Assembly (NCBI RefSeq): GCF_000244915.1
Contig: NZ_CM001442.1
Coordinates: 2,108,001-2,172,000 of the forward strand
Direction of reading: 5' to 3'
From: Bradyrhizobium sp. WSM471
GTDB lineage: Bacteria > Pseudomonadota > Alphaproteobacteria > Rhizobiales > Xanthobacteraceae
DNA length: 64,000 nt
In this document: piece after piece, positions 32,016 through 54,241 of the stretch
Numbering within the stretch: the stretch's first letter is position 1
Layout of the letters: each line of letters opens with the position of its first letter
The notes under the pieces: generated by a model
The model's input: only the letters and a program-made list of their open reading frames with translations
Databases searched by the model: none
What the model was told of the DNA's origin: nothing
Translations under genes and position numbers: made by a program

Positions 32016-33188
32016 ACGTACGCCGGCCGGCGAGCCGTCCCTGCGGTTTGCGTCGCAAATTTCCGGTGCTCAGGTGATATCCGTTCGACAACCCGTTGCG
32101 CCCCGTTGAACGTCTCGACATGGAGCCGACTCGGCTTAAGCCTTTTCCCAGCGGACAATCCACCGGCTCGGCCTGCAACGCCCGTCTTCCCAGATAGATG
32201 GACGGGGCCCCGCATCGCTGACGATGCCGTAACTCAGATTGGTTTGGCACCGACGGTGAGGGCTACGACAAGGTTGTGGTCAAAAGCTTCCGGTAGTTCG
32301 AGCCGAAGAGGACACACCGCAATTTTGGGCGAAGCCGAAGCTGCTACGCAGCAAGCCCTTGCGTTGCGGTAACGCGCCATTTTGCGCTGCCCTTGTCGAC
32401 AGGCCTAATTCTGCCTGGTCGTCGGGCTGTCTATTTTCGTTGACCAGCGCGATTTAGATTCCGCTGTAACCCATCGGCGGCGCTTCAGCCGTGATCAATG
32501 CGCCCCGAGACACAGGAGCCTTGGTGGCGAAATCCGCGCGGTGGTCATACCGGCGTTGAAGCCGGCGGCACCGGGATGGTCGGCCTCAAAGTGGGGTTGC
32601 CATCAGGTCATCGGGGCCAGTTTTAGGCTTGACGTTCCATTTCAGCCCGATTTGGGCATGCGTCGCCAGTCGTCCCTGTTTGCCGCTGTTCCCCCCTCAG
32701 CATGTATCAGCGGTGTCGCCGAATGATCGCTTTTCACGCGTCCAGGGTAGGAGCTCGTCCCATTCCAATTTCGCGACACCCCCCGTTACCGACCCAGAAC
32801 AAAAACGGATTTTTGATAATTTAAAACGATTCTTTGTCGAACTCTTCGTGTCCTGTGGGAGAGCGAAACACGCCATCAAAGAATCGTTTATTTTTCTAGA
32901 TGAGTCGTATCGCACGGTAACTCGCTGCGTGTTACCGTGCGATGGCGACAATGTTGATGGCCAATCGTGCTCGAAGATCGGAAAGACACGGCAAAAGGCA
33001 CAACTCGGGATCAGTCCGCATCCCCTCTGCCATTATCCGGGCGCGACCCAACATTCGACTGCGCCTCGATAAGACGCTCTTGCTTCCGCTTTGTGATCCG
33101 CAATGCTCCAATCGCGGACTTTGAACGCGCTGTCGGAAGCGGGCTGCATCATCCCGGCAGATGATCGGGTCCTTCGGGCTTTTGTTGC
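32016..33188. other. Decayed spacer with AT-rich core and hairpin
   Basis: About 1.2 kb with no supported gene. Contents: a stretch around 32541-32700 that looks like degenerate coding sequence on the minus strand; a 19-bp motif at 32759-32777 shared with the sugar transferase gene at 58164-58182; an AT-rich segment at 32810-32900; and a strong perfect hairpin at 32909-32943. Confidence 0.5.
32909..32943. repeat. Perfect 13-bp inverted repeat (hairpin)
   Basis: ATCGCACGGTAAC at 32909-32921 and its exact complement at 32931-32943 flank a 9-nt loop. No T-run follows, so this is not a typical intrinsic terminator. It is preceded by AT-rich DNA. It could be part of a small RNA, an operator, or the end of a lost element. 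Confidence 0.7.
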
Positions 33189-36355: not shown

Positions 36356-36697
36356 TCAAATATTTTTGGAGGAGTCCGTTCCGCGAGCCTCCGAAATCAA
36401 AAATTCCTCGAGATGCGCCCCAGCCTGGAGCTTGGCAGCTATCCAGCGCGGTTGCCTCCCCCGTCCTGACCATACCTCGTTCGGATTATTCGGGTTTCGA
36501 TATTTGGGCAGCACGGCGGGATATGGGCGGCGCTCGCGATCGGGTCGCCAGGCCTCGTTGGTTTCTTCAATCGCGCGAAGCCTTTGCTCAAGCTTGAACT
36601 TTTCCGCCTCGATCATCCGAGCAAGCTTCTTCGTCAACTCCTGATGAATAATCCATAGCTCATCGACGGACATCGATTGAAAGTCACATACCTCCAT
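36356..36697 (-). CDS. H-NS family nucleoid-associated protein
   Basis: A 113-residue H-NS/HvrA-type protein. The N-terminal half is a coiled-coil oligomerisation region (VDELWIIHQELTKKLARMIE). The C-terminal DNA-binding domain carries the family signature YRNPNNPNEVWSGRGRQPRW, including the AT-hook-like GRGRQPRW core. AAGGGG lies 6 nt before the ATG. Such proteins silence AT-rich or foreign DNA. It lies inside the gene-poor accessory region, which may be its own target (inference). Confidence 0.9.
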   Translation of the reverse strand: MEVCDFQSMSVDELWIIHQELTKKLARMIEAEKFKLEQRLRAIEETNEAWRPDRERRPYPAVLPKYRNPNNPNEVWSGRGRQPRWIAAKLQAGAHLEEFLISEARGTDSSKNI

Positions 36698-38205
36698 GGC
36701 GAACCCCTTAATCCGGTGATTCGCAAATCATGGGATAAGAAGTCGCGCGGCGAGGGAATATATCGCTCTACCCACAGGTATTTACTATGTGCGCCGCAGC
36801 GCCTGAGCGGTACTCAGGGAAGTTTCTATGCAATTTGGATCAGCCGTACGAAATCCGCAGGAGCCGCGACGGCGGGAGTTGTTCGACTTCTAAGCAAGTG
36901 AAGCGCATGGAAAAGGGAGGCTCTCGCCTCATCCGCTACAGCGATAAGCCGTAGCGGCGCGCGTCGGAAACGCCCGGAGACCGACAAGTCCCATCGCCCG
37001 TGACGGCCCTGGAGTACGCGAGGTTCCAGATTTAAGCTTTTGCGTAGGCGTCAATCTTAATAAGCGGGATGGCTTGCCGCCTTATGCAATTCCGGCCATC
37101 TATCAACTATTGGCAAACTTCTTTAGCGACCTTCCGCAACTCAACTACTTGCGTCAATTGGGCAGGCAACAAGTTCATGATCAGATATTCTTCGAGCTGT
37201 GTAACGAACTATCGCGCGCCAGCAACTCAATCCGCGCAAGATTCTCTCGAAATACAATATCGAGAATTGTTGAAATTGAGAGAGCGTGTCGAGAACGCCG
37301 AGACGGAGTTGCGCTCAAAGCTGCTCGACAAGGGCTCGCTTCGCAAAATCAACTAGAGCGCGGAATCATCTGTGGTGGCCCGTCGCGATCCAGCTGAATT
37401 GCGATGGGTCTTGACGACGAACCGTCGGATCTGGCGTCCGAGCAGTCGGCGCTGGAATGCCGCGTCGAATCTCCAGGGCCGCAACTGGATGGTTGTTGCG
37501 TGCTCTGGCGGACCTCGCTGATCACTAAGAGATATTGAGGGCTTCCCCACGTGTGGGCCGCACATCGGAAGAAAGCTGCCGCGCGACCAGATACTATCCG
37601 CTGTTGTTCGGCGACAGGAAGGACCCGGATACTTGCGAACTCGGGTGCCTTGCTCAAAGGCACTGGCGCGGACGGCTTGGCCGAGATTGTTCGGGCGATG
37701 TGCGAAGACTTCATCCGGGACGGCGTCTCCGATCTGTTACACGTTCGCGACGGCAAGGTGTCCTTTCGAGGTCAAAGGCGAAAGCGGACGCTATGCGCCG
37801 CAATCAACTGAGCCGTCTGCGCCAAATGGAGTGCGCCGGCATCACGGCCGAGATTTGCTGTGTGGACTAGGGTTCGAGCCGAAATAGGACCACCTGGTCG
37901 TAGATTTGAAACCGTGGGGGCCGGCCGTCCGGTGATAGGATCAGCGAAAGCGGCGCGGTCAGGATCCGCTACTGTCGGTTGACGATGAGTGGCAGTCGCC
38001 GTCAACCCGTAGCGGCCGATCCCTATCTCTTCGCCGCACTTCGACTATGGCTTCCTTTCGGTCGAGTACGGCTGAACGGCGCTTCCGCTTTCCGAAGCTC
38101 CGCACTTGCGCGGGAATGCGGCCTCGACAGCCGCCACTGATGGCCTGGTGAATCGTGTCCGTCGCTTGCCGGTAGGTTGGCCGTGAGTGACCGTGTGATT
38201 CTCGC
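36698..38205. other. Decayed spacer after H-NS gene
   Basis: About 1.5 kb without a supported gene. A tiny frame at 36907-37035 reads like one small protein interrupted by a single in-frame TAG at 36952. Two overlapping AT-richer frames near 37069-37400 and another near 37551-37811 resemble nothing I know. The segment ends at the direct-repeat cluster that begins at 38206. Confidence 0.45.
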
Positions 38206-38567
38206 GATTTTCGCGTTACAATTGCGGATTAAGTAGTTACAGCACCGGAGTTTCGCGATTCACTTCTATTCGTTCGTGGGATAAAATAAGAGTATAGCGT
38301 TACTAATGAAGATTATGGTGTTACAGTGAAGGAACAGGTTTCTGGCAAAAACTCCTCGAGTCCATGACTTTAGGCGCGCCCCTGAAATTGAATAATTCGA
38401 TTATGGCGTTACACTACGACGCAAGACCAGGGGGGAGCCGCGGATGTGCCCATGGCCACTGTCTCGAATTTGTAGCGAGCGACCGGCCTTGGCGATCCGA
38501 CGGAGAACTTTTTCGAGGTCCATCGAACCGGATTAACGCGTTACTTTTCGAGATTAACGCGTGACAG
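38206..38567. repeat. Iteron-like cluster of 16-bp direct repeats, 21-bp phase
   Basis: At least seven same-strand copies of a 16-bp motif close to GATTAACGCGTTACAG start at 38206, 38227, 38290, 38311, 38399, 38531 and 38552; an eighth weaker copy (12 of 16 matches) starts at 38248. The intervals 38206-38227-38248, 38290-38311 and 38531-38552 are each exactly 21 bp, and 38227-38290 is exactly three times 21, so the first cluster shares one helical phase. The GCGTTAC core is the best conserved part. No gene overlaps the repeats. The layout is that of protein-binding iterons or recombinase/transposase arm sites. Confidence 0.85.
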
Positions 38568-38980
38568 TTTAGGGGAAGTAACGGGGGGCCCCGGCGATTC
38601 CTTGCCTACTAAGGTCCCTACAATGCCGGAAGGGGACACCGGCTGAGAGGCGCTTAGGCTGCTCAATCACCCCCGCCCAACGCGATTGTAGAGGCGATCG
38701 GCCGCAGCCCCAGGCTGGTCGAGGTCCAGTTTGAAGACGACTGCTGATTGCTAACAAGTAGCGCGGCTGATCGCCTCCTAAATCGACTGCAAGCTCACGA
38801 AGGTGAGGTCCGGCAATGCCCTTCCGATCATCTTGCGCACTGTCGGCGCCAATGGGGCCGACCAACGGAATCTTCGCCTTGGACCGCGCACCGATGGGGG
38901 TGCTGCGTGCGATCGCCCTGTTCTCTCGGCACAAACCGTCGCCAATGAAATTCATGGTTAGGGCGGCGACCCGGTGCGGC
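38568..38980. other. Spacer between repeat cluster and beta-helix gene
   Basis: About 410 bp without a supported gene. Frames are open on both strands (up to 164 codons on the minus strand), but none shows a family pattern or a good ribosome-binding site. It could include the far side of a lost element tied to the repeat cluster. Confidence 0.4.
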
Positions 38981-41256: not shown

Positions 41257-41619
41257 ATGAAGAAGCATTCGAGACACGAAATATTCCTCAAGCTTAACCA
41301 GGCGGATGCGCTGGTTCAGGCAGGCAGTTCCCAGGTCCAGATCAGCAAGGCGCTCGGTGTCAGTGTGATGACCCTGCATCGTTGGCGCAGGCTTCCGCGC
41401 CGGCCCGGGGAGTTCCAAAGCGGCGAGGACGCTGTCCAAATGGAGGCTTTGGGGCCGGAAGGACAGCCAAGTGCCGAGCATATGCATCGCCTGGTTGAAG
41501 AGCTAACCCTTGAGAACAGACGGCTCCGCAAGATCGTTACCGATCTATTGCTTGAGAAGTTGCAGCTGGAAGAGGGGTCCTCCCCGGGGATCGCTCATAA
41601 AGACGAGCGCGCCAGCTGA
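41257..41619 (+). CDS. Orphan transposase-OrfA-like HTH protein
   Basis: A 120-residue protein with an N-terminal helix-turn-helix (EIFLKLNQADALVQAGSSQV, then ISKALGVSVMTLHRWRR) and a C-terminal leucine-zipper-like helix (ENRRLRKIVTDLLLEKLQLE). This is the architecture of IS3-family OrfA proteins. No OrfB or terminal inverted repeats were found, so it is either an IS remnant or a domesticated DNA-binding protein. It precedes the exopolysaccharide genes on the same strand. Confidence 0.7.
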   Translation: MKKHSRHEIFLKLNQADALVQAGSSQVQISKALGVSVMTLHRWRRLPRRPGEFQSGEDAVQMEALGPEGQPSAEHMHRLVEELTLENRRLRKIVTDLLLEKLQLEEGSSPGIAHKDERAS

Positions 41620-53972: not shown

Positions 53973-54241
53973 TGCAGGATTGCGGAGCTTTCGGCCTGAA
54001 GGTCAACGGCGGTGTTGTAGCCCGAATCGGGCCGAAAAGGTGGGCGGCGGTCACTTGCGCTGAGCGATCGAAAATTAACGTAAAAGACCTACCAAGGGCG
54101 AACTGGCCCGATTTCTCCATTAGAGAGACAGTTCGGTGGTCAAGCGCATGTTGAAGGGCAAGACGGGACCTGCAGCGCAAGGCAAGGCAAGATGAATATT
54201 GACCGTTACTATACTCGTCGCGCTTGCGCCGGATTTTATCC

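Follow-up and report, generated by a model that had tools for sequence, protein, structure and literature searches.

In the 64,000-nucleotide stretch of DNA from Bradyrhizobium sp. WSM471 that was analysed here (the window), a short motif is repeated along one strand of a gene-free segment, and the question arises what such an array is and where it comes from. In our opinion, with a probability slightly above one half (about 0.55), it is a relic of a cis-acting module that lies close to the attachment (att) site in a family of integrative islands of Bradyrhizobium and its family.

38206..38565, forward strand: array of seven direct repeats (14-mers), found by a repeat search, six of the seven also being found by an independent matrix.

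The seven same-strand copies reported in an earlier note on this DNA were recovered by the repeat search as 14-mers starting at 38206, 38227, 38290, 38311, 38399, 38531 and 38552, and the segment 38206-38567 is, as had been claimed, without a gene, being overlapped by no open reading frame (ORF) of at least 80 aa. A weaker copy proposed in brackets at 38248 lies outside the 14-mer family and scores below 8 bits with the matrix. The successive spacings are 21, 63, 21, 88, 132 and 21 bp, and the proposed 21-bp phasing holds for four of the six intervals (21 or 3 × 21 bp), while two (88 and 132 bp) are off this rule.

Single matches to the 16-mer form of the motif mean little, and only the count in the cluster is informative, because at up to 3 mismatches the real pattern has 27 matches in the own genome of the strain (7.78 Mb) and the reversed control pattern has 57. 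Six of the 27 lie in the window array, including the sole match of this genome with 1 mismatch. A repeat matrix was trained on 40 repeats from 12 other loci, two of them homologous to each other, without the window sequence. With a threshold of 8 bits, it finds every site but 38227 in 38190-38570, 6 of the 7 in all; when the window was resampled 60 times with a first-order Markov model, no stretch of 381 bp had more than 2 such sites on one strand. Over the whole window and both strands, 14 sites reach 8 bits vs. 9.2 expected; an isolated strong match of 18.2 bits is situated at 54196-54212. At the other loci, 21 of 28 successive intervals measure 21 or 22 bp, and in an array from a different genus five copies follow one another at exactly 21 bp.

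38523..38623, forward strand: conserved terminal block, defined by alignment A1 of 13 loci and model R1.

The earlier description captured the array and overlooked this block, which is the best-conserved part of the locus, as well as a second copy discussed below. The block consists of the last two repeats, GTGAC (38561-38565), a 12-bp gap with GGGG, an inverted GTAAC (38578-38582), six Gs and CCTAC at +27 and +39. Alignment A1 includes 13 of 16 aligned loci (L030, L036 and L037, with a second layout, were left out), and its conservation continues for about 45 bp past the inverted GTAAC. The sequence-only model R1, built from A1, matches the window block at 38527-38622 with 76 bits (E 8.3e-23).

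Using a 501-bp query, BLAST gave matches in 8 of 265 genomes of the genus, own genome included; the nine places listed are the query itself, L015 (a 32-bp match elsewhere in the query) and seven places matching the terminal block. With R1 at E ≤0.01, the number of genus genomes rises to 18 of 265 (own included; several weak matches, the lowest at 19 bits, are among them), and in the family 25 of 391 genomes (own included) from 8 of 47 genera were found. An exact block pattern, which had 0 control matches, occurs in 7 of the 265 genus genomes; own genome was missed because its last repeat reads GTGAC. The repeats are missing from a match in Chloracidobacterium (L032), which was put down to chance. 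Of the 72,556 plasmid records searched with two window queries and two kin loci, pS11L-1 was the only one matched, and a search of 50,697 phage records with one kin locus was negative. The exact pattern has one match in IMG/VR, and a PHROG search of four predicted proteins of that record gave no match. Explanation of the array as a chance repeat is rejected by the conservation of R1 across genomes together with the independent recovery by the matrix. The earlier note had named random density of the motif and absence of conservation as signs of chance; in the part of this comparison that was run (the 16-mer search of the genome, the R1 search and the matrix), the array withstood it.

Two layouts of the module can be distinguished. 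In one of them, one or two repeats are followed by the core and by GTGACG motifs, often with a palindrome; in the other, to which the window belongs, a longer array precedes the core and CCTAC motifs, and the palindrome, where seen, is upstream. Palindromes of the type ATCGCA-N23/24-TGCGAT were found within 400 bp of 11 of 31 mapped cores (an uncontrolled count). The pattern of the commonest palindrome form is present in 6 of 265 genomes and adjoins an R1 match in 4 of these.

The association of the module with mobile DNA is supported by its surroundings, counted over 34 cores in 30 loci (L037, L087, L124 and L128 were omitted, as were the weak second sites of L047 and L118 and loci duplicating a place already counted). 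The exact 17-mer of the tRNA-Gln 3' end has 9 copies in the 542 kb around these cores. All nine lie no farther than 1 kb from a core, a zone that makes up 65 kb, and in all nine the CCA end points away from it; the P values of 5e-9 and 0.004 are naive, since the loci were picked around cores and the 17-mer comparison is one of locus centres vs. flanks. With 2 mismatches allowed, one more site appears, at a distance of 3.5 kb from its core. No 17-mer is found within 1 kb of 25 of the 34 cores, and the orientation of the array relative to the tRNA fragment is inconstant (six of the nine cases in one sense, three in the opposite one). In place of the T-arm, a GGCTGRGTA-like stretch precedes the 17-mer in L022 (where it differs), L023, L024, L083, L116, L123 and L191; it occurs in array loci and at the end of an array-less island in genome G105.

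Both ends were located in two islands only (39.7 and 78.3 kb), and in these direct repeats with an integrase at one end were found, which identifies them as tRNA-Gln-integrating islands with a WP_304501195-type integrase. In genome G129, an intact tRNA-Gln gene and a 3' fragment are 39.7 kb apart, with the array just inside the fragment and the integrase at the tRNA. Plasmid pS11L-1 has the same layout, with two tRNA-Gln fragments 78.3 kb apart and no intact tRNA gene. In both, a 600-aa tyrosine integrase and a DUF3102 gene occupy the end opposite the array. The two integrases are 93% identical; the 600-aa protein scores 25.7 bits against PF00589, just under the Pfam cut-off of 27.1, and is named a tyrosine recombinase/integrase in the plasmid record. 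A search of solved structures for DUF3102 gave nothing useful. Kin of an AAA ATPase and of a 197-aa island gene are present in G129 and pS11L-1, near the arrays of other genomes in L019, L020, L025, L082, L086 and L119, and beside a core-like site in L128. In G055, G105 and G262, such kin and an integrase at tRNA-Gln were found with no array.

Bradyrhizobium elements integrating at tRNA-Gln are already in print (PMC9174649). The symbiosis ICE described there is about 0.68 Mb long, unlike the islands of 39.7–78.3 kb considered here, and the accessible part of that source mentions no repeat array. A literature search, mostly in sources open without subscription, gave no description of the array.

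According to a suggestion of the earlier note, such repeats may be arms of a recombinase site. In its strict form, which is a narrower version of the preferred explanation, the repeats would serve the tyrosine integrase of the islands themselves as arm-type sites. The position near att fits, and in G264 some 270 bp separate the first repeat of the array from the beginning of a truncated integrase kin (86% identity), of which more pieces lie about 10 kb away. Array and integrase kin occur together in 5 genomes vs. 1.5 expected (P 0.01). There is also a precedent, in so far as the accessible text of PMC11963761 shows: the attP of ICEMlSymR7A has five IntS arm sites in 283 bp, all of them needed, and in both cases a short motif is repeated several times close to the att site of an integrative element from rhizobia. 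The motif differs, however, being TGKTGGTATC there and GAATTGAGCGTTAC-like here, and the array does not track the integrase. In a genus-wide R1 search, no array was detected in 17 of the 22 genomes that carry the integrase family (a laxer search added one doubtful match, in G039), and 13 of 18 array genomes have no integrase. The 77.9-kb tRNA-Gln island of G105 was searched for an array and none was found, and the core can be as far as 0.8 kb from the att fragment, a further difference from that part of the ICEMlSymR7A system which is described in the available text. Those 17 genomes and the G105 island carry the WP_304501195-type integrase without the array, which is therefore no obligatory arm of it, and the strict version of arm sites is unlikely.

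An integrase next to every array was not found among the matches listed, and several other candidate genes were considered. A 161-aa ORF about 0.4 kb from a G471 core looks integrase-like by eye, has no Pfam match and was not counted. A 207-aa ORF adjoining a G386 array (L118:10502-11125, reverse strand) is 30% kin of a 301-aa island protein. That protein and its kin, this ORF included (the others at L156:27407-28312 and L158:7559-8461, both on the reverse strand), look recombinase-like by eye only; the two members of this family that were scanned, the 207-aa ORF among them, gave no Pfam match. The 197-aa island protein was rejected as a binder of the array, no DNA-binding motif being evident by eye. 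The 343-aa, AAA-M41 and RNase_T genes of L019 were rejected as transposition genes, as they belong to no such family.

The comparison with replication iterons made in the earlier note deserves separate consideration. By analogy with oriV of SGI1, the repeats might bind an initiator that copies the excised island. Direct repeats spaced by two helical turns, as in most intervals measured, would suit this, as would the palindrome near part of the cores, the position near att, the lower GC content (0.54 vs. 0.61) and, in G163, a 742-aa ORF (L079:5209-7437) about 2.4 kb from an array, which matches a phage DNA primase/helicase (PHROG 239, E 2.3e-20). An HTH_17 ORF (L079:4407-4805) is also found near an array of G163. 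In SGI1, as far as the accessible part of PMC7826253 goes, oriV is situated about 2 kb from the left end and comprises four 16-bp repeats together with an inverted one, so that direct repeats resembling iterons, accompanied by an inverted repeat, are common to both near one end of the island. SGI1 oriV, however, has an adjoining repA and DnaA boxes, whereas among the proteins scanned here, a selection, the primase/helicase gene is near one array only and the others include no initiator-type gene. DnaA-like boxes (TTATCCACA, up to 1 mismatch) number 0 in 16.8 kb of modules, which is weak evidence because only about 1 was expected from the flanks. The spacing thus agrees with the suggestion and the lack of DnaA-like boxes does not; this explanation is a weaker one and rather unlikely.

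The immediate surroundings of the window array contain the following pieces.

37647..38133, forward strand: broken 3' pieces of a VRR-NUC/exonuclease gene, with kin on pS11L-1 and near a tRNA-Gln integrase in G209.
38764..38914, forward strand: broken earlier piece of the same VRR-NUC/exonuclease gene, lying after the 3' pieces.

The kin of this nuclease are situated on pS11L-1, outside the 78-kb island, and in G209, about 2.8 kb from the tRNA-Gln integrase. The pieces are circularly permuted around the array with a shared breakpoint (L018 6130/6131): that at 38782-38910 ends, in kin coordinates, where the piece at 37647 begins. They are probably remains of an island, and it is in this sense that the word relic is used. 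No tRNA gene, no tRNA-Gln 3' fragment at up to 6 mismatches and no island AAA gene were found in the window, and the own genome has no kin of the WP_304501195-type integrase at E 1e-30, so the window locus lacks the tRNA gene, the 3' fragment and the integrase by which tRNA-Gln islands were recognised. The absence of rep, recombinase or transposase genes within several kb, noticed earlier, agrees with a Pfam scan of 12 window ORFs and with the integrase matches listed for the own genome, of which the best 7 of 9 are all outside the window and the other two are weaker. The sole HTH/transposase-like ORF among the 12 encodes 120 aa (41257-41619), with PF13384, PF02796 and PF01527 at or below the cut-offs. 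When the window was compared with 59 relatives in search of an empty site, 21 gave short matches only, of up to about 450 bp, too short to define such a site.

A degenerate second copy and its palindrome lie upstream.

32779..32828, reverse strand: degenerate second copy in the opposite orientation, seen as an R1 match and in the letters.
32909..32943, no strand assigned: palindrome beside the second copy, with perfect 13-bp arms (32909-32921 and 32931-32943) and a 9-bp spacer.

The second copy contains two CGTTTT units 21 bp apart, followed by a 17-bp step to GTAACGGGGGG (32779-32789); CGTTTT replaces CGTTAC, while the 21-bp and 17-bp steps are kept. The R1 match (32767-32810, reverse strand) is weak, at 19.6 bits, with E 3.5e-5 for the window and 0.0042 for the genome. 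The palindrome belongs to the same ATCGCA-N23/24-TGCGAT type as those found close to other cores. A gene for an H-NS-like protein (36356-36697, reverse strand; PF00816, E 2.6e-19) is situated in the gene-poor stretch between the two copies.

The ends of Tn7 and Mu contain multiple transposase sites, and the interval of 32.78–38.62 kb could be one element with inverted ends of this kind; transposon ends in general were among the parallels named in the earlier note. The two opposed copies 5.8 kb apart in the window fit this suggestion, and nothing else does. The other pairs of cores found are all in direct orientation, at 11.1 kb (G471), 8.7 kb (G188, one member weak), 5.6 kb (G163) and 0.37 kb (G209), with a weak pair 23 kb apart in G386; the conserved sequence extends about 45 bp beyond the inverted GTAAC, and no transposase match was obtained for the ORFs scanned between the window copies. 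Transposon ends are, therefore, a weaker and very unlikely explanation.

The weak G386 pair (L117/L118, G386:C1 about 3.82–3.84 Mb) encloses a polysaccharide gene cluster, and the window region is flanked, at some distance, by genes for sugar epimerase and polysaccharide export. Such neighbours would be expected if the array were an operator for a regulator of adjacent genes, e.g., those of polysaccharides. The genes next to the module differ between loci, however, and an operator function is very improbable too.

Returning to the att-proximal module of an island family, it may be concluded that the module, in which repeats at 21 or 22 bp run into a terminal dyad and a G tract, with a palindrome near some, is found repeatedly in the vicinity of island genes and of 3' fragments of tRNA-Gln. 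The idea of a putative binding platform left by a mobile element, put forward in the earlier note, is well supported by this recurrence. From the sequence comparisons, the module can be regarded with moderate confidence as a probable accessory binding array near att for a recombination protein. An island- or host-encoded DNA-binding protein would line up on the repeats along one face of the helix and load onto the terminal dyad. The GTTAC half-site is common to the repeats and the dyad, which suggests that one protein may bind both. The bound protein, a recombinase or a directionality factor, would take part in excision and integration and perhaps also in transcription of the recombinase gene, which would be the neighbour of the array in the circular form. 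In the window, the island would have decayed, its cognate genes and tRNA fragment being lost and the repeats having drifted. It is also conceivable, with quite a low probability, that the module is a shared docking site apart from the islands' integrase, at which one trans-acting protein assembles and mobilises, stacks or maintains different islands, these accreting around the module as direct repeats.

The module provides a searchable cis marker by which the borders and remnants of genomic islands can be traced in bacteria of soil and root nodules, even where the integrase has been lost. It also raises the testable question of what protein recognises an array that occurs with the same integrase in some cases and without it in others.
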